Of a stretch of DNA of 64,000 bases, positions 26,146 to 62,803 are shown one piece after another. This stretch comes from Geothrix edaphica (GTDB taxonomy: Bacteria; Acidobacteriota; Holophagae; Holophagales; Holophagaceae), in NCBI RefSeq assembly GCF_030268045.1, contig NZ_BSDC01000003.1, forward strand, positions 310,001 through 374,000. The letters are read 5' to 3'. Within the stretch, counting starts at the first letter, position 1. Each line of letters starts with the position of its first letter. Under the pieces are notes generated by a model. The model saw only the letters and a list, made by a program, of their open reading frames with translations, was not told where the DNA came from and did no database searches. The position numbers and the translations under genes were made by a program.

Positions 26146-26164
26146 CAAGGCCCCCTAGGCCTTG
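26146..26164. terminator. hairpin between convergent genes
   Basis: CAAGGCC-CCCTA-GGCCTTG, a 7-bp perfect stem overlapping the stop of the trihaem cytochrome gene. No T-run. Confidence 0.4.
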
Positions 26165-26829
26165 TGCGCGTGCACCCGGGCGAAGAGGGCCGCGTCAGCC
26201 TTGGCCCCGTGGCACTTCCGGCAGAAATCGAGGGTGGGCAGGACCAGGCCCGCGGCCTTCGCCGCAGCGGGGTTCTTCATGACGCCCATGGCCTTGTAGT
26301 CGGCACCATTGCCATGGCAGGCCTCGCAGTCGAGGCCCTTCTTGGCATGGGCCGTGGCCGACCAGGAGTCGTGCTGGAGGCGGTGGCACATCTTGCAGGC
26401 GCCAGCCCCCACGGCGGTGTGGCCGTTGGCCGCCAGGGAGGGCATGGGGCCCGCAGCAGGCGTGGGCGCGGGCTTGGGGGCAGGTGCCTGAGCAGGCGCG
26501 GGAGCGGGCTTGGGGTCCGGCGTTGGAGCTGCCGCGGGTGCAGGCGCCACCGCAGGGGCCGGAGCCGGGGCAGCCGCCGCGGGTGCGGCGGCCGGCTTGG
26601 CGGTCATGGTCTCCACGGCCTTGGGTGCCTGGGCAGGTGCGGGAGTGGTGGCGGGTGTTACTGCCGGGGCAGGGGCGGGCTCGGCCTTGGTTCCGGCAGC
26701 GGCCGGCTGGGCCGCGGGCGCACCGGCGGCCGGGGTCGTGGCCGGCGCGGTGGCCGGAGCTGGCGCCTCCTTCTCGGCGCAAGCCAGCAGGCAGGCGAGC
26801 ATCAGGGCAGGTACGGCCAATCGACGCAT
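26155..26829 (-). CDS. trihaem c-type cytochrome lipoprotein with long Pro/Ala linker
   Basis: 224 residues. A lipobox (LLAC, Cys17) is followed by a linker of about 110 residues made almost only of Ala, Pro, Thr and Lys. A compact C-terminal domain carries three CXXCH sites: CKMCH at 145, CEACH at 168 and CRKCH at 203. The His-rich surroundings resemble cytochrome c554/c3-type fragments with bis-His haems. The layout suggests a lipid-anchored electron carrier on a flexible tether spanning part of the periplasm (inference). It is followed by no other redox gene. Confidence 0.85.
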   Translation of the reverse strand: MRRLAVPALMLACLLACAEKEAPAPATAPATTPAAGAPAAQPAAAGTKAEPAPAPAVTPATTPAPAQAPKAVETMTAKPAAAPAAAAPAPAPAVAPAPAAAPTPDPKPAPAPAQAPAPKPAPTPAAGPMPSLAANGHTAVGAGACKMCHRLQHDSWSATAHAKKGLDCEACHGNGADYKAMGVMKNPAAAKAAGLVLPTLDFCRKCHGAKADAALFARVHAHKA

Positions 26830-26854: not shown

Positions 26855-28972
26855 CTACTTCCCGGCGGATCCGAACGCCAGATTCCGCACCATGTCCTCG
26901 GTCTTCCAGGGGGCGGCGCCGCCGCCCAGGTACTTCTGGAACCACTCGAGATGGGCGTTGTAGTAGACGGGCATGGACTTCAGGCCATCGGGCCAGTGGC
27001 CGTCATTCCTGAAGACGAGGAGGCGGCTGGGCACACCCATCTCCTGGAGCCCGGTGAAGAACTGCAGGCTCTGGGTGTAGGGCACGCGATAGTCCCGCTC
27101 GCCGGTGATGACGAGGCAGGGCGTCTTGAAGGCCTTCACGTGGCTGCTGGGGTTCATGCGGTCGTAGGCGGCGGCCTTGTCCCAGGGCGTGCCCGTCAGG
27201 TCGTGTTCGGGGAACCACAGCTCCTCGGTGGCGCCGTGCATGGACCGCAGGTCGTACACGCCCATCATGGCGGCGATGGCCTTGAAGCGCGTGGTGTGAC
27301 CCTCCAGCCACATCATGGCGTAGCCGCCCCAGCTCCAGCCCATGGCGCCCATGCGGCCCTTGTCCACATAGGGCAGCCCGGCGAGATGGTCCGCCACCTT
27401 CTCGATGTCCGTCATCACCTTGCCGTCCCAGTCGCCGCTGATGGCGTCGGTGAAGGCCTGGCCGTAGCCCGTGGAGCCGTGCGGGTTCGGGAAGGCCACG
27501 ATGTAGCCCGCGCCGGGATAGACCTGCCAGTCGCCCCGCAGGGTGTCGGACCACATCATCTGCGGGCCGCCGTGGACGTTGAGGATGAGCGGATACTTCT
27601 TCGCGGGATCGAAGTCGTGGGGCTTCACCAGGAACACATGGATGTCCTTGCCGTCGGCGCCCTTCACCCACTGCTCTTCGGCGGGACGGATGTCCACTTC
27701 GTCGGCCAGGGCCTGATTGAAGGAGGTGAGCCGCTTCAGCTCTTTGGTGCCGAAGGTGTAGCGCCAGACCTCCACCGGCTCGCCGACGCGGGTCTTGCTG
27801 AGGAGCACCGCCTTCTGGTCCGGGCTCACCACGAACTCCCGGATGCTCTGGCCATCGAGCATGCGGGTGGTCTTCCCGGAGGCCACGTCCACGCGGAACA
27901 GCGGCCAGCGGCCCTTCTCCTGCACCGTGAACCAGAGGGCCTTGCCGTCCGCCGACCACTGGAAGGCGTCCACCCAGTTGTCGATGGCCTCGGTCAGCAC
28001 CTTCCGCATCTTCGTCTGCCGATCGTAGATGGCGAGCCGGAAGCGATCGGATTCCACCGCGGGGCGGGTCTGGAACTTGTAGGCGATGTAGCGGCCGTCC
28101 GGCGAGTACTTGGGATCGCCGTCGTAGGCGGGATTGTCCGTGATGCGGCGGGGTGTGCGGTCGCCGTCCAGCGAGATCAGGAACAGATCCTGGTTGGTCG
28201 AGCGGGCCGGCACGGGATCCGTGTTGGTGACCACGCAGATTTCCCTGCCATCCGGGCTGAGGTCGAAGCTCTGGGAGCTCGGCGTCGTTGCATCCGCCGG
28301 GTAGTCCTGCTTCCCGGAGGTGAGCGCCTCCACCTTGCCTTCAAAGGTGGCGGTGAAGAGGTGGCTGTACTGGAAGTCCCGCCACTCGGTCCAGTGGCGG
28401 TAGAGCAGCGTCTCCGCCAGGTGGGCCTGCACGGGGCCCTTCTCCAGCTTCTCGGCCAGTTCCTTCTGCTTCGCGCCGTCCGCCATGGCCTCAGGGAAGA
28501 CCGTGGCCTGGAAGACCACCTGATTCCCCCCCGGCAGCACCTTGGGGGACCCGACGCCCGCCTCGAAGGCCGTCACCTTCCGGGCCTCGCCGCCCGCCAG
28601 GTCGAGCGCCCAGAGCTGGCTGCCCTCCGTCCGGCTGGAGAGGAAATAGAGCGTCTTCCCATCCTTCGACCACTCGGGCGCCGTGTCGGACTTGCCCGAG
28701 AAGGTGAGCTGCCGCGTGGCGCCCGTGGCGGTTTCCAGCAGCCAGAGCTGCGTGTTGCGCGTCGAGGCCTTCAGGTCCTGGCTGGACACCTCGAAGGCCA
28801 GCTTCGATCCGTCCGGACTCAGAGCCAGGTGCTGCACACCCTTCAGGCGATAGAGATCCTCGATGGTGAAGGACCGCTTCTCCGCGGCCCTCAGGGGCAA
28901 CGCAAGCAGCAGGGCGGTGGCTGGGACAAGGCAAAAAAGACGCACAAACCCTCCGAAGGAGCCCTTCAGCAT
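26855..28972 (-). CDS. S9-family prolyl oligopeptidase-like exported peptidase
   Basis: 705 residues. A signal peptide (ALLLALPLRAAE) leads to a beta-propeller N-domain with TolB-like repeats (LSPDGSKLAF, YSPDGRYIAY) and a C-terminal alpha/beta hydrolase domain. The nucleophile is Ser547 in GWSWGGYAM. The catalytic Asp is probably in TGERDYRVPY and the His in NDGHWPDG. This is the dipeptidyl-peptidase IV/acylaminoacyl-peptidase class. The ATG at 28972 was chosen for the signal peptide. It is divergent from the next gene with a 103-bp gap. Confidence 0.92.
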   Translation of the reverse strand: MLKGSFGGFVRLFCLVPATALLLALPLRAAEKRSFTIEDLYRLKGVQHLALSPDGSKLAFEVSSQDLKASTRNTQLWLLETATGATRQLTFSGKSDTAPEWSKDGKTLYFLSSRTEGSQLWALDLAGGEARKVTAFEAGVGSPKVLPGGNQVVFQATVFPEAMADGAKQKELAEKLEKGPVQAHLAETLLYRHWTEWRDFQYSHLFTATFEGKVEALTSGKQDYPADATTPSSQSFDLSPDGREICVVTNTDPVPARSTNQDLFLISLDGDRTPRRITDNPAYDGDPKYSPDGRYIAYKFQTRPAVESDRFRLAIYDRQTKMRKVLTEAIDNWVDAFQWSADGKALWFTVQEKGRWPLFRVDVASGKTTRMLDGQSIREFVVSPDQKAVLLSKTRVGEPVEVWRYTFGTKELKRLTSFNQALADEVDIRPAEEQWVKGADGKDIHVFLVKPHDFDPAKKYPLILNVHGGPQMMWSDTLRGDWQVYPGAGYIVAFPNPHGSTGYGQAFTDAISGDWDGKVMTDIEKVADHLAGLPYVDKGRMGAMGWSWGGYAMMWLEGHTTRFKAIAAMMGVYDLRSMHGATEELWFPEHDLTGTPWDKAAAYDRMNPSSHVKAFKTPCLVITGERDYRVPYTQSLQFFTGLQEMGVPSRLLVFRNDGHWPDGLKSMPVYYNAHLEWFQKYLGGGAAPWKTEDMVRNLAFGSAGK

Positions 28973-29075
28973 CGCATGGAAGAAACTGATGACCTTGTGA
29001 TCATGTTCGATTCGCGCGGGGCTACCATGGGGCACTCATCTTTCCAGCCGACCCATCCGCCGTGCCGGAGGCACC

Positions 29076-30470
29076 ATGCTGATCCCTGCGCTCCTTCTAG
29101 GTCTGCTGCAGGCCCAACTGCCCCCCGCACAGTCAGGCCCCCGCGCGTACGAGCCCTCCGCGCCAGCCCTGGCGGCCAAGGCACCAGGCGCTCCCGGTTA
29201 TGGCCTCCAGACCACCATCCGCTCGGGCAAGATCCTGCTCACCAACCTCCGGTTCCACCCCGTCACCCGCAAGGTGCAGGCGCAGCTCTACCGGGTTCGC
29301 GGGCCAGCGGGCATGGGGCCCTACCGGCTCGGAGTCCAGTTGCAGTTCCATCCGCAGCAACAAGCCCCGAACGATGTCCTTCATCCGATCTGGTATGCCA
29401 ACTATTTCGCCATCACGAGTGCCCAGGACGGCTTCCCGGCGAAGGAAGCCGGTCTGGAGGGGCGCTGGGTCATTGAACGCATCGATGGAAGCAACTTCGG
29501 ATGGGATCTGGGAGCCCTCATCTTCCACATCTCCAACAGCCCCGTCATCAACGTGGACGCCGCGAAGTTGCCGATGTTCGGAGGTCCGTCGCGGAAGACC
29601 TTCCGGATCACCATGCGCAAGGTGGACGGGCCCGTGGATCCTGGCGATGGGACCCTCGAACCCGTCCAGGCCAATAGTGAGATCCAGGAATGGTTGAACG
29701 GCAGGCAGACTTGGCGCGACCTGCTCATCCTGCGGTCGCGGCAGGCACGATTCGCGCCCCTTCCCATCGATCTGGCTGGCCACAGGATCTGGGTGGTTCG
29801 CAACCTCGGGCAGCCGTCCCCGGATTCCTCCCGAATGCTCGAGTTCTGGCGGGAGGATCCGCTCAACGGCGCTTGGGATACCGGACTCGTCGACCTCTGG
29901 CCCGAGCCCGCGGATGGCCTTCGGCCTGGCAGGGCCATCCGGATCGAGGATCACTGGTACCGGATCCTTGCCAACGGCCAGGATCCGGTGACCGGACGCC
30001 TTGATCGTCTGGAGCTCCGTCCCTGGGAGCCTGATATCGCCGCGCTGCTGGGTGGCGCCACCCTGGCGAAAGACCTGGGCGGACTGAACGCCCCTCCCCT
30101 CCAGGAATCCATCGAACAGCTGGCCAACGAGTCCCTGGTGGAATGGAAGACGCGCACCCTGCCGGGCCTGCTGGCCGCACAGAACCTCGGACCGGCGGAA
30201 GATCTCGTGATCCGGATCGAGAAGGGTGTCCTCGCGCTCGATCTCGAGACCAAGGGCATCCGCGCCCGCCTGGACGCGGCGGCCCGCGCCGAAGCCGAAC
30301 GCAAGGCCCAGGCGGAGCTCGCCGCCAAGAGCGGGCAGCCTGTGCCTCAGGCTCAGACAACTCCCGCCACGGAGAGCGAGCGCCTCGCGGATCTGCTGGA
30401 GCAGCGCAAGGCCATCCTCATGGCCATCCTCGGAAGCGCCAAGCAGTCGCTCGCCAACCTGCGGAGGTGA
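29076..30470 (+). CDS. exported protein of unknown family (paralogue of 31903-33336)
   Basis: 464 residues, unrecognised. A short signal peptide (MLIPALLLGLLQAQ) is followed by a mainly beta region (about 45-300) with the block RVRGPAGMGPYRLG near 75 and GRLDRLELRPWEPD near 310, and a helical, charged C-terminal third. The tail LLEQRKAILMAILGSAKQ recurs almost unchanged in the gene at 31903-33336, as do the other blocks, so the two are paralogues. A GGAGGCACC SD precedes the ATG. The next gene starts 3 bases after its stop. It is probably exported; function unknown. Confidence 0.8.
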   Translation: MLIPALLLGLLQAQLPPAQSGPRAYEPSAPALAAKAPGAPGYGLQTTIRSGKILLTNLRFHPVTRKVQAQLYRVRGPAGMGPYRLGVQLQFHPQQQAPNDVLHPIWYANYFAITSAQDGFPAKEAGLEGRWVIERIDGSNFGWDLGALIFHISNSPVINVDAAKLPMFGGPSRKTFRITMRKVDGPVDPGDGTLEPVQANSEIQEWLNGRQTWRDLLILRSRQARFAPLPIDLAGHRIWVVRNLGQPSPDSSRMLEFWREDPLNGAWDTGLVDLWPEPADGLRPGRAIRIEDHWYRILANGQDPVTGRLDRLELRPWEPDIAALLGGATLAKDLGGLNAPPLQESIEQLANESLVEWKTRTLPGLLAAQNLGPAEDLVIRIEKGVLALDLETKGIRARLDAAARAEAERKAQAELAAKSGQPVPQAQTTPATESERLADLLEQRKAILMAILGSAKQSLANLRR

Positions 30471-30473
30471 TCC

Positions 30474-31895
30474 ATGCACCGACCAGTCATCTCGGTCCTT
30501 GCTCTCTTGGTCTCTACCCTTCTCCGGGCCCAGATCGGCCTCCACAATGAAGCACCCCCACCCAAACCCCAGAGCAGCCAGAGTGGGGATGCCCTCAGCC
30601 AGCTGGAGGCGATCACCAAAACCAAGGTGGACCGCAGCAAGGTCGGGACCTCCTTCAAGGTCCAGAAGACCGTCATCCCAAAGCTGAAACCCGTTCCGTG
30701 GATCAATACGACCAGTGGCCAGAACGCCACGATGCTGGTGGGCATCTTTGGCAACCTCCTGAGCCAGGCCCTGACACCCACTTCCCCCACTGGCCCCAGT
30801 CCCGCCGAGCTCGCCCGCATCGAGGCAGAGCGGCAGGCCGCGCTTCAGCGGGAGCAAGCCGAGCTACAGGCCTGGACCAACAGTTATGCCACCCGGATGA
30901 ACGGGCTCATCGAGCACCAGCGACAGGAGCGCATGGCCCAGAACAAGGAGAGCCTGGAGGGACTTCGGGCCTCCCTTTCGGACGGTTTCGATTCCGCCGC
31001 CGGGGGTGGCCTGGCTGGAGCCCTCAGCGATCCTGCACCCGTGGTGGACCTGAGCCAGAGCCAGACCTTTACGCCCAGCCTCCTCCGGGAGGCCAATGGC
31101 ACCAAGCGCACCAAGCCCATCACGGCGGACGATCTGCTGAAGCGCCGGGAGGCCGCCCAGGCCAGGCTCAAGAGGATGATGGCCGAGAACAAGGACCTGC
31201 GCGTGCTGGGCCAGCGCTTCTACGAGCTGGAAGCCCAACTGGAACGGCTGAAGCGCCAGGCCGCCAGCCTCGGCGCCGAGGGCCGCGCCATCCAGCGGGA
31301 CATGGACTTCTGGGGCTGGAGAATCGATCAGGCGACCCAGGCCTGCATGGAGCGGGGCACCAGCCTCCTCACTGACATCATCATTCCGGAAGGCAACAGC
31401 GCTGGGCTGGCCCGCCTCAAGAAGAATCCCAAGACCTTCAACCGGCTCGTCCAGGCCTGCTCGCAGCTCAACGACTACACCGAGTTCACGACCACCCTGG
31501 GGGATCGCTACGATGCCGCGGAGCAGGCCCTGGACTGGCCCAAGGCCAAACACACCCTCATGGAGCATGTCGACTTCATCGCGTCCAACCTCCAGAATGT
31601 GTCGCCAGTCTTCAAGCCCGTGAGCACGACCTGGAGCCTGGGCAAGACCATCATCGGCACCAGCGTGGACTTGGCGGCGGAGCTGGATGGCTGGGGCGCC
31701 ATCCTGGAACGCCAGGGCGATGTATCGCTGATCCTCCAGAAGCAGAAGGCCCTCAAGCGACCCCTCGATGCCATGATCCGCGATCTCCAGGCCTCCCGCG
31801 CCCAGATCGCCGCCCAGCTGGGCGTGAAACCCGAGGACCTGATCCCCGTCCAGGCCCGGCCCAAGGGGCTGGGTTCCAATGTGGCTCCCCTTTGA
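30474..31895 (+). CDS. exported coiled-coil protein of unknown family
   Basis: 473 residues, unrecognised. The signal peptide ends near LLRAQIG. A Pro/Ser-rich region follows, then a hydrophobic stretch NATMLVGIFGNLLSQAL (~83-99). Two helical segments rich in Glu/Arg/Gln follow (about 108-160 and 218-275), the second strongly heptad-like (KRREAAQARLKRMMAEN). The rest is helical with an FIASNLQNV region. A GGAGGTG SD. It is sandwiched between two paralogous exported proteins with gaps of 3 and 7 bases, so all three should be made together and may form a complex (inference). Confidence 0.78.
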   Translation: MHRPVISVLALLVSTLLRAQIGLHNEAPPPKPQSSQSGDALSQLEAITKTKVDRSKVGTSFKVQKTVIPKLKPVPWINTTSGQNATMLVGIFGNLLSQALTPTSPTGPSPAELARIEAERQAALQREQAELQAWTNSYATRMNGLIEHQRQERMAQNKESLEGLRASLSDGFDSAAGGGLAGALSDPAPVVDLSQSQTFTPSLLREANGTKRTKPITADDLLKRREAAQARLKRMMAENKDLRVLGQRFYELEAQLERLKRQAASLGAEGRAIQRDMDFWGWRIDQATQACMERGTSLLTDIIIPEGNSAGLARLKKNPKTFNRLVQACSQLNDYTEFTTTLGDRYDAAEQALDWPKAKHTLMEHVDFIASNLQNVSPVFKPVSTTWSLGKTIIGTSVDLAAELDGWGAILERQGDVSLILQKQKALKRPLDAMIRDLQASRAQIAAQLGVKPEDLIPVQARPKGLGSNVAPL

Positions 31896-31902
31896 GGCAG
31901 AC

Positions 31903-33336
31903 ATGATCCGCACCTCCGCCCTCCTGCTCGTCGCCGGCTTCTCCCTCCCGCTCCTGGCGGGGTGGAAGCAGCCCATCCCGCGCTTCCCCGCTGTGGTGAA
32001 AGCAGATGACCTCCGCGAGGAACCCATGCCAGCCCACTGGGGGCCTCAACTCCCGGAGGCGCCCCTCGCCGGGGCCATGCTCACCACCTACCTCGGTCGC
32101 TTCGTCGTCTATCCCACGCGCTTCGATGTCCAGGGACGCCTGCGGTGGCGGGCACAGCGCGTGGAAGGTCCCGCCGGCATGGGTCCCTACGAACACGGCC
32201 TGTCTCTGGAGATGGTCTCCGAGCCGGGAGACACACAGGGCATGGCCCGGATCACGGCCATCCGGGACGAGCTGGGCATTGACCGAGGTCATTCATGGGG
32301 CGTCGGGGACTTCATCGAAGACCCTGCCAAATTCCATTACCCTGCGGTCTTCCACGATCTGACTCTTGGGCTCTTCCTGTTCCAGTACCGGATGTCAAAC
32401 CTGCCTGGCTCCATGTTCCCTGTGTACAGGCCGAACAAGCTCTTCGAAAAACGAGGTACCGGTGGGGTCCAGAGCGTGGCGCGCGCTGGGACGCCAGCCC
32501 AGCTGCCAGCCACCTTCAACCCGGACGGACCGATCCCCGTCGAGGCTGGCGCGTGGTTCAAACAAGCCTCTGCGCGTCTCCTCGTCCTCCGCGCAGCCCA
32601 CCCGGCCTACCAGCCCCTCGTCGTCGACTGGGCTGGCCGGAAGTGGGTGGTGGTGGGCCCATCCCGTTCCGGACGCTCCCTCCAGCTCGAATTCTGGGCC
32701 GATGCCCCCGGTCCTGACGCGAGGGGTTCGAGACCAGAGGCCACCTGCGATCTTCCGGGGGCCTCCAGCGCCATCGGTGCGGTCCTCTCCCCCGGGGGCC
32801 AGGCGGCCCGCATCCGCGACGCGGTCTGGGATCCCGGCACAGGACGCCTGACCCGCCTCGAACTGGAGCCCTGGAAGCCCGATGCCCTACCCTTCCTCTT
32901 GACGGGCAAGTCCGAAGCCAACACCCAGGAAGGCCTGGCCCTCGCCTTCAACGATGCGCTGGTGGACTGGAAGGTGAAGGCGCTCACCTCCTATGTTCGG
33001 GGCATCGATGAGGCTGCGGCCGCGGACTTCCTGGCCCGGCTGGAGAAGACCCTGCTGAGGATGGACATGGACATCCGTCGCCGGCGGCAGGCCCGGGAAT
33101 CCCAGGAGCAGGACGCCTTGAGCCGTCAGGCGGCGGATGGCGTCCAGCGGCTGCAGCAGGAAGCCTCCCGCCGCCGGTTCCTCCTGCCAGCGGAGTTGAG
33201 GGAGATGGGCGAGGACGATGGCCGTACCACCACCTCCGCCAGTCCCGAGCTGATGGATCTGCTGGACCAGCGCAAGGCCATCGTGTCGGCCATCCTCGCC
33301 AACGCCAAGCAGCTTCTGGCGGCGGCACGCCGCTGA
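31903..33336 (+). CDS. exported protein of unknown family (paralogue of 29076-30470)
   Basis: 477 residues. Signal peptide at MIRTSALLLVAGFSLPLLAG. It shares with the protein at 29076-30470 the blocks RVEGPAGMGPYEHG, TGRLTRLELEPWKPD and a C-terminal LLDQRKAIVSAILANAKQLL in the same order, at low overall identity by eye. It lacks obvious catalytic motifs. The start at 31903 follows the previous stop with a GAGGC SD; the open frame reaches back to 31879, but the signal peptide begins at 31903. Last gene of the cassette. Confidence 0.78.
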   Translation: MIRTSALLLVAGFSLPLLAGWKQPIPRFPAVVKADDLREEPMPAHWGPQLPEAPLAGAMLTTYLGRFVVYPTRFDVQGRLRWRAQRVEGPAGMGPYEHGLSLEMVSEPGDTQGMARITAIRDELGIDRGHSWGVGDFIEDPAKFHYPAVFHDLTLGLFLFQYRMSNLPGSMFPVYRPNKLFEKRGTGGVQSVARAGTPAQLPATFNPDGPIPVEAGAWFKQASARLLVLRAAHPAYQPLVVDWAGRKWVVVGPSRSGRSLQLEFWADAPGPDARGSRPEATCDLPGASSAIGAVLSPGGQAARIRDAVWDPGTGRLTRLELEPWKPDALPFLLTGKSEANTQEGLALAFNDALVDWKVKALTSYVRGIDEAAAADFLARLEKTLLRMDMDIRRRRQARESQEQDALSRQAADGVQRLQQEASRRRFLLPAELREMGEDDGRTTTSASPELMDLLDQRKAIVSAILANAKQLLAAARR

Positions 33337-33364: not shown

Positions 33365-34813
33365 ATGGAAACCCTGGACAGCCTCCGCAACCCACCCCCC
33401 GGCCGCGGGATCTTCTGCAATCGCACCCTGAACCTGCGCTCCGTGCGGGCCATCGGCTACGACATGGACTACACCCTGGTGGACTACCGGGTGGCGGCCT
33501 TTGAGCAGATGGTCTACGCCCAGGCCCGGGAGCGGCTGGCTTCCGAGGGCTGGCCTGTCGAGGACATGGCATTTGACCCGCGGATGGTGGCCCGCGGCCT
33601 GGTGATCGACACGGAGCTGGGCAACCTCGTGAAGGCCAACCGGTTCGGCTTCGTGAAGCGGGCCATGCACGGCACGCGCATGCTCGAGCACACCGAGCAG
33701 CGGGACGCCTACGCCCAGACCCTGGTGGACCTGAGCGATCCGCGCTGGGTGTTCCTCAACACGCTGTTCTCGCTGTCCGAGGGCTGCCTCTTCGCCCAGG
33801 CCGTGGATCTGCTGGATCGGGGCGCCCTGCCCCACCCCTTCGAATACGCGAGCCTCTACCGCCACGTGCGGGCCCGGGTGGATGCCCAGCACATCGAAGG
33901 GCACCTGAAGGCCGAGATCGCCGCCGCGCCGGAGCGCTACGTGGTTCAGGATCCCGAGGCCGCCCTGGCGCTGCTGGACCAGAAGGCCGCGGGCAAGAAG
34001 CTGCTGCTCATCACCAACTCGGAGTGGAGCTTCAGCGCGAAGATGATGGCCCATGCCTACGACCGGCACCTGCCGGAGGGCATGACCTGGCGCCAGCTCT
34101 TCGACGTGGTGATTGTCGCCGCCCGCAAGCCCGCCTTCTTCACGGAGCACGGTCCCTTCTTCGAAGTGGTGGACGAGACGGGCCTGCTGCGCCCTCTCGC
34201 GGGGCCCCTGCGCGCGGGCGGCCTCTATCTCGGCGGGTGCGCCGCCCAGGTGGAGCGCGACCTGGGCATCTCCGGCGACGAGATCCTCTACGTGGGCGAC
34301 CACATGTTCGGCGACGTGCATGTGAGCAAGCGTTCCCTGCGCTGGCGCACGGCCCTGGTGCTGCGGGAGCTGGATGCCGAGGCGGCGGCCCTGGAGGCCT
34401 TCCGGGGGACCGAGCTTCGCCTCATGGCCCTGATGCGCGAGAAGGAGGCGCTGGAGAACCAGCTGTCCCAGGCGCGCCTCGCCCTCCAGCGCCTCCACGC
34501 GGGCTATGGCCCCGCCCCGTCGCTGGACGCGGCGGGCCTGGAAGCCCGCGTCCAAGGCCTCCGCGGCCAGCTGGTGGCCCTCGACATCGAGATCGCCCCC
34601 CTGGCCAAGGCCGGTACGGAGCTGGTCAACGCGCGGTGGGGCCTGCTCACCCGCGCCGGCAACGACAAGAGCCACCTCACCCGCCAGATCGAGCGCTACG
34701 CCGACATCTACACCAGCCGGGTGTCGAACTTCCTGCACGCCACGCCCTTCGCCTACTTCCGCTCGCCCCGGGGCAGCCTGCCGCACGATCCCGGGGATCA
34801 CCGGCCCGCGTAG
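33365..34813 (+). CDS. HAD-superfamily 5'-nucleotidase
   Basis: 482 residues. The nucleophile motif GYDMDYTLVDY (Asp33, Asp35) starts the HAD core, LLITNSEWSF is motif II and ILYVGDHMFGDV is motif III. The size and the long C-terminal helical region (about 330-450) match the cytosolic purine 5'-nucleotidase family (HAD-IG, cN-II-like), which hydrolyses IMP/GMP. There is no signal peptide, so it is cytoplasmic. Its last 16 bases overlap the end of the convergent gene. No clear SD precedes the ATG. Confidence 0.85.
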   Translation: METLDSLRNPPPGRGIFCNRTLNLRSVRAIGYDMDYTLVDYRVAAFEQMVYAQARERLASEGWPVEDMAFDPRMVARGLVIDTELGNLVKANRFGFVKRAMHGTRMLEHTEQRDAYAQTLVDLSDPRWVFLNTLFSLSEGCLFAQAVDLLDRGALPHPFEYASLYRHVRARVDAQHIEGHLKAEIAAAPERYVVQDPEAALALLDQKAAGKKLLLITNSEWSFSAKMMAHAYDRHLPEGMTWRQLFDVVIVAARKPAFFTEHGPFFEVVDETGLLRPLAGPLRAGGLYLGGCAAQVERDLGISGDEILYVGDHMFGDVHVSKRSLRWRTALVLRELDAEAAALEAFRGTELRLMALMREKEALENQLSQARLALQRLHAGYGPAPSLDAAGLEARVQGLRGQLVALDIEIAPLAKAGTELVNARWGLLTRAGNDKSHLTRQIERYADIYTSRVSNFLHATPFAYFRSPRGSLPHDPGDHRPA

Positions 34814-36213
34814 ACCGTGATGCCGTAGTGCTCCGGATCCCAGGGGGCATCGCTGTTCCAGTGGCCGTAGGCGTGGCTGTCGTCGGTGCGGAAGCGCAGG
34901 GTGTAGGTGCCCCGGGGCAGGCTGATCACCTCGTCGGCCAGCCGGTTCTTGGTGGTCCCGCCAGCGAACTGGGTGTGATCGTAGACCATGACCCAGACCC
35001 GCTTCCCTGCAGCGTCCTCGATCCAGGCCTCGTCGGCCATCTCATCGCCGCTGCCCTCGGCGATGGCATAGACCCGCACGGAATGCGCCGCCGTCAAGGT
35101 GAACGCCACGCTGCGGTCCTGATCGTTCCCGACCCGCACCAGCTCCGCCAGGGGTACCCAGGCCATGGGCTTCGCCAGTGAGACCGCCGCCAGGTCGGTG
35201 TCCGACGGCACGGCGAGTGTGAGGCCGTACATCCACGGGTCGCAGGGGGGCGCGGCGTTCCAGTCCGCCGGGGAATGGGAGTCATCCGTGACGAAGGTCG
35301 CTTCGTAGTCGCCGGCGGGGAGGGTGACCGTCTCCACCTGGCGGCGGTTCTTCCGGGCGCCGCCTGCGAACTGGGCCTTGTCCATGCTCATCTCCCACAC
35401 CCGGGCGCGGGTGCGGGCCTCGATGATCCAGCCGTAATCGTGCATGCGCCGGCCGCTGCCCTCGCCCTCGGCGTAGATGTGGAGGGTCACCGGCTTCCGG
35501 ACATGGAAGGCCTGGGTCCAGTGGCCACTGTCCGCGGTGGCGGCGAGGGCCACGAGGACGTTCTTCCAGCGCAGTGGCGCCTCGAAGGTGGGCACCTCGG
35601 ACGGATTGCCGCCGGGCAGGTAGATCTCCAGGCCGTAGTTCCCCACCTGCTCCCGCCAGTGGCGCAGCAGGCTGGTCCGATCCGCGCCGAAGGCCGCCAG
35701 GAAACCCCGGGGCCGCTCGGCCTGCTCCGCCTGCAGGGAGCGCCGGTCGATGTTGCGGGTCCACTGGGCGAACAGCAGGCTCTGGCCGAAGCCATGGTTG
35801 GAGAAGTAGGCCTCGTAGCTTCCCGCGGGCAGCTCCAGATACTGGTCTGCCACGCGGTACTCCCAGTCCCGCCGGGTGTTGGTCCCATCCATCTGCCAGA
35901 CCACCTCGCGGGTGGCGGCGTTGAGGATCCAGCCGTAGGCGAAGAAGGGCTCATCGGTGCGGGCATGGACCAGGCGCCGCAGCCCGCCGCCCTTGGCGTA
36001 GATGTGGACCTTCATGGGCCTCGGCAGGCTGAAGCCCTGGCTCCGCACCTCCGCGGCCTCGAAGCCCTTCAGCGACACGATGCGGGGCTCCGGCCGCGGG
36101 TCCGCCGCCCCGCGCAGGGCCAGGGGCGCGAAGGCCGTGAAGAGGATGAAGGCGGCCACGGCCTGGACCGTGCGGACCAGCGCCACAGCTTCGGACATCA
36201 GGAAGGACGACAT
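34798..36213 (-). CDS. exported protein with three repeats of an unknown domain
   Basis: 471 residues. A membrane or signal segment (VAAFILFTAFAPLAL) is followed by three copies of a ~95-residue unit, at about 60-165, 215-315 and 370-471. Each has VxxxIYAEGEGS, a YGWI(x)AxTRxRVW strand and LPAGxYExxFxTDDSH. Copies two and three also share FAGGxxKNR and DPxxYGxTV. Copy one is more divergent. The pattern of beta strands suggests jelly-roll or Ig-like modules. No family recognised. The ATG at 36213 was chosen because the upstream extension lacks a signal and SD. Confidence 0.75.
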   Translation of the reverse strand: MSSFLMSEAVALVRTVQAVAAFILFTAFAPLALRGAADPRPEPRIVSLKGFEAAEVRSQGFSLPRPMKVHIYAKGGGLRRLVHARTDEPFFAYGWILNAATREVVWQMDGTNTRRDWEYRVADQYLELPAGSYEAYFSNHGFGQSLLFAQWTRNIDRRSLQAEQAERPRGFLAAFGADRTSLLRHWREQVGNYGLEIYLPGGNPSEVPTFEAPLRWKNVLVALAATADSGHWTQAFHVRKPVTLHIYAEGEGSGRRMHDYGWIIEARTRARVWEMSMDKAQFAGGARKNRRQVETVTLPAGDYEATFVTDDSHSPADWNAAPPCDPWMYGLTLAVPSDTDLAAVSLAKPMAWVPLAELVRVGNDQDRSVAFTLTAAHSVRVYAIAEGSGDEMADEAWIEDAAGKRVWVMVYDHTQFAGGTTKNRLADEVISLPRGTYTLRFRTDDSHAYGHWNSDAPWDPEHYGITVYAGR

Positions 36214-62455: not shown

Positions 62456-62803
62456 TCATTTGATCTGGAACGTGAACTTCCCCTCGTGGCATTCCAGGCA
62501 TTTCACCACCGGCGGCTTGTGCTGGCGGTGGCATTCCGTGCAGGGGATGGGATCGTGCGGCGAGGCATGGGGGTTGGGCTTGGCGTCCTTCGTCAGCGCC
62601 TTCATGGCCGGGTAGTCCCCGTGACAGACCATGCAGGCCTCGTCCGGTACCGCCGCCGTGGTGGGCTTCTCCTTCTGGTGGCAGTCGTGGCAGATCAGCT
62701 TCGCCTTGATGTGGGGCGCCGGCAGCGGTTTCTCCTGAGCCAGGCCGGTCCCGGTGGCCAGCAGCCCGGCCAGCCCCAGAGTCCCCATCCGAAGAAGCCG
62801 CAT
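62456..62803 (-). CDS. tetrahaem periplasmic c-type cytochrome
   Basis: 115 residues. A signal peptide ends near GLAQ (~22). Four CXXCH sites: CHDCH 38-42, CMVCH 57-61, CTECH 88-92 and CLECH 102-106, with matching His. It resembles the small tetrahaem cytochromes (STC/CctA and flavocytochrome c haem domain) that carry electrons across the periplasm in metal-reducing bacteria. GGGAGGGCAC SD supports the start at 62803. It could link the membrane quinol-oxidising cytochrome to outer acceptors (inference). Confidence 0.92.
   Translation of the reverse strand: MRLLRMGTLGLAGLLATGTGLAQEKPLPAPHIKAKLICHDCHQKEKPTTAAVPDEACMVCHGDYPAMKALTKDAKPNPHASPHDPIPCTECHRQHKPPVVKCLECHEGKFTFQIK

Follow-up and report, generated by a model that had tools for sequence, protein, structure and literature searches.

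The window analysed here, a stretch of 64,000 nucleotides from the 3.16 Mb genome of the soil bacterium Geothrix edaphica, carries a cassette of three consecutive genes on the plus strand (g1, g2, and g3). With a probability of about 0.5, we read this cassette as encoding an exported two-component assembly, in which a PDZ protein without a protease domain (type A, here g1) and a coiled-coil protein (B, here g2) would form a scaffold or adaptor for exported proteins rather than an enzyme. Type-A proteins would contribute the PDZ domain together with another beta part and a C-terminal part that is long and helical, and B would supply a charged, probably coiled-coil framework. The g1 type often occurs in tandem copies, and g3 would be a fast-evolving extra paralogue of A. 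A and B would bind each other, presumably by packing of their helices, and the PDZ domain of A may grip a C-terminal peptide, which could be the V-x-P-L tail that B has in Geothrix or the end of some other exported protein.

Cassette layout and its gain or loss as a block

The cassette sits between the divergent genes of an S9 peptidase and a 5'-nucleotidase:

26855..28972, minus strand: S9-family peptidase, bordering the insertion site on the left, outside the cassette (Pfam PF00326, E 1e-53)
29076..30470, plus strand: g1 (type A), 464 aa; in order, an export signal, a beta part at the N-terminus, the PDZ domain, another beta part, and a helical C-terminal part
30474..31895, plus strand: g2 (B), 473 aa; export signal, first third unstructured, long helices in the remainder (predicted)
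31903..33336, plus strand: g3, 477 aa, divergent paralogue of g1; PDZ loop block retained, other PDZ signature lost
33365..34813, plus strand: HAD-type 5'-nucleotidase, right border, outside the cassette (Pfam PF05761, E 1.8e-141)

These coordinates agree with the preliminary description of the locus, which had reported same-strand genes with gaps of 3 bases (g1–g2) and 7 bases (g2–g3). An alternative ATG for g3 lies upstream at 31879 and would create an overlap with g2; the start at 31903 is favoured because homologues open with MIRTSALLL/MTRTSAFLL. The nearest relatives, judged by this locus, are G. campi, G. fuzhouensis, and G. oryzisoli. Across four close species, dN/dS amounted to 0.11–0.18 for g1, 0.14–0.20 for g2, and 0.33–0.55 for g3, compared to 0.08–0.12 for the two flanking genes, and all three cassette genes are, by this measure, real genes under purifying selection.

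Signal peptides, which had been claimed for each of the three proteins, were judged by eye from the N-termini of the cassette proteins and their relatives. The claim held for g2 and g3, which have good signals, and was weaker for g1, where a short hydrophobic stretch, MLIPALLLGLLQAQ, lacks a basic n-region; several relatives of g1 display clearer signals. A lipoprotein cysteine was found in none of the cassette proteins. From their N-termini, all three would be exported, i.e., periplasmic or secreted.

Other exported-looking proteins are encoded in the window. The gene at window positions 34798–36213 specifies a protein with three internal repeats (YGWI..A..R.VW.M......DSH..HWN.....DP) and sub-threshold Pfam matches only (DUF5013, DUF4397), and is kept in every Geothrix locus with coverage on that side of the site. 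Two short proteins with CxxCH haem motifs, resembling small c-type cytochromes, are encoded at 26155–26445 and 62456–62788.

The cassette has come or gone as a whole, at a single chromosomal site. In all ten cassette-free Geothrix genomes examined, the S9 peptidase and 5'-nucleotidase genes stand together and the interval holds no A and no B; at some of these sites one unrelated gene (SurE or another) separates the two. When the two flanking genes are placed on a tree, genomes with and without the cassette are intermingled in at least three places (G046 within G001/G003; G010 beside G019; G014/G018 beside G029/G031). Comparison of two carriers, G002 and G008, revealed 97–99% identity in parts of the cassette (window positions 29000–33300) versus 80–94% for the flanks, a mosaic which points to between-species exchange by recombination. 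Patchy presence, gain and loss as a block, this exchange, and the raised dN/dS of g3 are what a two-gene exchangeable module with a role in competition or defence would be expected to display. We nevertheless regard such a role as highly improbable: PADLOC and PHROGs gave no match, A had none in a viral collection and B none in a plasmid collection, the junctions examined hold neither terminal repeats nor mobile-element genes, and no enzymatic or toxin domain was found.

The PDZ region of g1 and its divergent paralogue

The preliminary description had proposed that the two outer proteins are paralogues, and a full-length alignment of g1 and g3 (29% identity, 102 bits, E 9e-28) bears this out; the three sequence blocks it had quoted as common to both are present and in the order claimed. 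It had further recognised no family for any of the three. Whole-protein profile searches against Pfam, NCBIfam, PADLOC, and PHROGs indeed assigned none of them singly, sequence profiles gave only chance matches against the PDB, and viral predicted structures, when searched, contained nothing credible. The statement has to be corrected in one respect, as the family of the outer proteins contains a PDZ domain according to the structural model of g1. The parts of g1 and g3 that bear on this are as follows:

29301..29333, plus strand: GPAGMGPYRLG, g1 residues 76–86, the most conserved block of the PDZ region, ahead of the strand at residues 87–92
29319..29627, plus strand: PDZ domain of g1, residues 82–184 (VIA-align, Foldseek, and weak Pfam PDZ matches in relatives)
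29634..30050, plus strand: second beta-rich part of g1, residues 187–325 (AlphaFold model)
30378..30464, plus strand: C-terminal helix of g1, residues 435–463, LLEQRKAILMAILGSAKQ (conserved; pLDDT 85–98)
32167-32190, plus strand: PDZ loop block of g3, retained
33250..33330, plus strand: C-terminal helix of g3, LLDQRKAIVSAILANAKQ (sequence conservation)

The AlphaFold model of g1 was built from an alignment of 21 relatives (pLDDT 87, pTM 0.76). In this model, residues 82–184 form a PDZ domain, with the five to six strands, two helices, and peptide groove of that fold. VIA-align matched them to dozens of PDZ chains, including those of HtrA, DegS, DegQ, and CtpB (Z 11–12.5, rmsd about 2–3 Å over 85–98 residues, with 1.7 Å as the lowest value), and the top Foldseek matches were HtrA, HhoA, and CtpA/CtpB (probability up to 1.00), at a sequence identity of about 11–21% to the PDZ domains of HtrA/Deg and Ctp/Prc proteins. 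The assignment is carried by this structural evidence; Pfam scores fall below the gathering thresholds. No Pfam PDZ match was obtained for g1 itself; its relatives yielded E-values of 3.5e-4 to 0.08, all under the gathering scores, the best being 20.7 bits against a cut-off of 27 (PF17820) and 17.9 bits against 23.2 (PF00595). A Prc model hit a Terriglobia copy of A (E 0.0056; 15.8 bits against a cut-off of 218.6), and only the PDZ part was matched.

No protease domain was found in g1 or its relatives by Pfam and NCBIfam. A trypsin-like domain ahead of the PDZ was not detected, g1 having about 60 residues between signal sequence and PDZ, nor was an S41 catalytic domain after it in g1 or relatives. 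The roughly 280 residues that follow the g1 PDZ, together with the lack of a GspC family match, differ from the GspC-type architecture, where an inner-membrane anchor and an HR domain precede a PDZ at the C-terminus.

PDZ domains carry a carboxylate-binding loop just ahead of the strand that corresponds to residues 87–92 of g1. The block RVRGPAGMGPY, one of those singled out previously, runs on into RLGV directly before this strand, and from its position GPAGMGPYRLG is a candidate for the carboxylate-binding loop of g1.

For the second beta-rich part of g1, no fold emerged from the structural comparison, whose match list was filled by PDZ chains. It is followed by long helices that end in the strongly conserved LLEQRKAILMAILGSAKQ helix, with a mean identity of 83% within type A. 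In the tree, g3 forms a long separate branch. It has kept the loop block and the last helix and lost most of the other PDZ signature; its identity to type A is 57% in the last helix and 21% in the PDZ region. The better conservation of the helix between g1 and g3 and the largely lost PDZ signature of g3 would suit a purely structural or surface role, e.g., an envelope fibre or matrix of A and B, with the PDZ as a remnant and the C-terminal helix as the working part. We consider this unlikely, as the pattern GPAGxGPYRxG is near-invariant in g1-type proteins, Terriglobia copies included. That the C-terminal helix of A docks the middle protein, as had been suggested, is possible without being specifically supported; the model, in which the helix has pLDDT 85–98, would fit its packing within its own protein as well. 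As a separate observation, G004 has one more full-length type-A gene, located between g1 and B (L048:9578-10987), with a lower profile score and a weak codon signal; it may be decaying.

B, its C-terminal tail, and its PDZ neighbours

Type-A genes were identified in 12 of 47 Geothrix genomes, where they form a unit with B (cut off in one genome); a further 30 genomes from the family had none. The three genes had been taken as the unit, which did not hold: the conserved core is A-B, consisting of one to three type-A genes and then B, and g3, found in six genomes only, is missing in half of the Geothrix carriers as well as at the one locus in Terriglobia. The layouts seen were A-B-g3, A-A-B-g3, A-A-B, and A-B. 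B directly follows A in 12 of 12 assessable loci, usually 2–3 bases apart; two further A genes run off contig ends and lie outside these loci.

In a sample of 396 genomes from the phylum, B was confined to Geothrix, save one weak local match. When genome contigs were scanned with B, one further carrier emerged, a MAG from Terriglobia (Granulicella sp. bog_404, contig L101) with the layout A-A-B and 2 bases between genes. Co-location in other Acidobacteriota, a check that the preliminary description had called for, thus extends to other Geothrix genomes and this MAG. The contig belongs to Terriglobia because its flanking prenyl synthase is closest to a Terriglobia homologue (67% identity, against ≤52% to Geothrix and one other Holophagaceae genome). 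The Terriglobia A genes nest inside the diversity of Geothrix type A (97/98 support), in line with between-class transfer, and no other clear A copies were present in a class sample of 299 genomes. Outside Acidobacteriota, nothing was found with B in one genome-contig scan and in plasmids, or with A in viral contigs. A represents a new protein family that makes use of a known domain; as far as seen, it is limited to Acidobacteriota.

Upstream of the Terriglobia A-A-B genes, L101 encodes a 708-aa exported, partly helical protein (L101:1914-4040) and exported TPR proteins (L101:752-1729), which may also belong to the system. The idea that the 708-aa protein is a distant B found no support in a profile comparison.

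The middle protein had been described as helical and charged. The model of g2 agrees, being all-helical at low confidence (pLDDT 49), and g2 does not match the g1/g3 profile. Because this model is poor, the coiled-coil character of B rests on sequence and predicted helices, by which B is probably an exported-looking, charged, mostly helical, coiled-coil protein. Its C-terminus provides a candidate PDZ ligand:

31881..31892, plus strand: V-A-P-L C-terminus of B; the conserved form is V-x-(P/R)-L, preceded by a variable stretch

Every Geothrix B protein whose C-terminus is intact (12 of 12) has the V-x-(P/R)-L tail, including two that are only 44–50% identical to the rest, and the tail lies behind a variable linker in a region of pLDDT 32–34. 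From this pattern, the V-x-P-L tail is a possible ligand for the PDZ domain of A. A universal PDZ grip on the tail of B was rejected, and such a grip is no general rule, because the B protein of the Terriglobia A-A-B locus ends in GCLAR and lacks V-x-P-L.

Close gene order by itself is no proof of an A-B complex. As to co-localisation, whose absence had been proposed earlier as a refutation, B occurs without A at two Geothrix loci, and another PDZ protein adjoins it there. These loci, in G008 and G014 (L051:9846-12385 and L050:8054-10662), are unrelated to the cassette site and hold a second, divergent B (44–50% identical to cassette B). The neighbour is exported, has TPR repeats, and carries at its C-terminus a PDZ domain for which PF00595 scores 28.9 bits against the cut-off of 23.2 in the G008 copy. 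Close relatives of this TPR-PDZ protein were confined to those two genomes, other matches being short TPR matches. Of the indirect arguments that B and PDZ domains are functionally linked, the strongest is that B turns up next to PDZ proteins in two settings unrelated to each other. A more far-reaching reading, that of a previously undescribed exported two-component system of Acidobacteriota, appears doubtful to us. In it, a protease-less PDZ family would bind the conserved C-terminal V-x-P-L tail of its coiled-coil partner, and the pairing, having taken two forms (A-B and TPR-PDZ-B), would spread blockwise between lineages at one fixed place in the chromosome.

Comparison with known PDZ systems

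Type-A proteins share with HtrA/Deg and Ctp/Prc (S41) proteins the PDZ fold, export, and a glycine-containing loop block before the PDZ strand. They differ in having no trypsin-like or S41 domain detectable by search, and in possessing extra beta and helical parts that match no family. The nearest working analogues of the cassette are CtpA-LbcA (PMC11021448) and Prc-NlpI, which likewise combine an exported PDZ protein with a helical partner; TPR repeats occur in the partner of the divergent B in G008 and G014. However, LbcA and NlpI are TPR proteins acting on a PDZ protease, whereas here the PDZ protein has no protease and B is not a TPR protein. No TPR match was obtained in g1, g2, or g3, and hence nothing resembling the TPR superhelix of LbcA/NlpI. 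The cassette is not a member of this type because its proteins hold neither protease nor TPR.

The analogy can also be turned around, with the PDZ on the adaptor side. The PDZ domain of A would then not bind B; instead, it would take hold of further exported proteins by their C-termini and pass these clients on to a housekeeping periplasmic protease (HtrA or a C-terminal processing protease), while B would serve as spacer or tether. The whole would be a client adaptor comparable to LbcA-CtpA or NlpI-Prc. The PDZ of A most resembles the domains found in HtrA and C-terminal processing proteases, TPR repeats as in LbcA occur in B's alternative partner (PMC11021448), and multiple A copies could broaden the range of clients. 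We hold this delivery role to be rather unlikely, as the cassette includes no protease gene; the adjacent S9 peptidase is not specifically linked to the cassette because it stays where the cassette is absent.

In a survey of microbial PDZ proteins, 88% of those classified carried a protease domain, the remainder being GspC, Fe-S oxidoreductase, haem-binding uptake, and ComP proteins (PMC6411480). A resembles these four classes in having a PDZ without a protease, but their accompanying domains were not detected in it, and GspC has a membrane anchor that A appears to lack. Judged by the domains found, A fits none of the four.

If the reading as an exported A-B scaffold or adaptor is true, the cassette would represent an unusual case of bacterial PDZ scaffolding, resembling the eukaryotic use of PDZ domains, and three unassigned proteins would gain a testable domain assignment and a testable partner.
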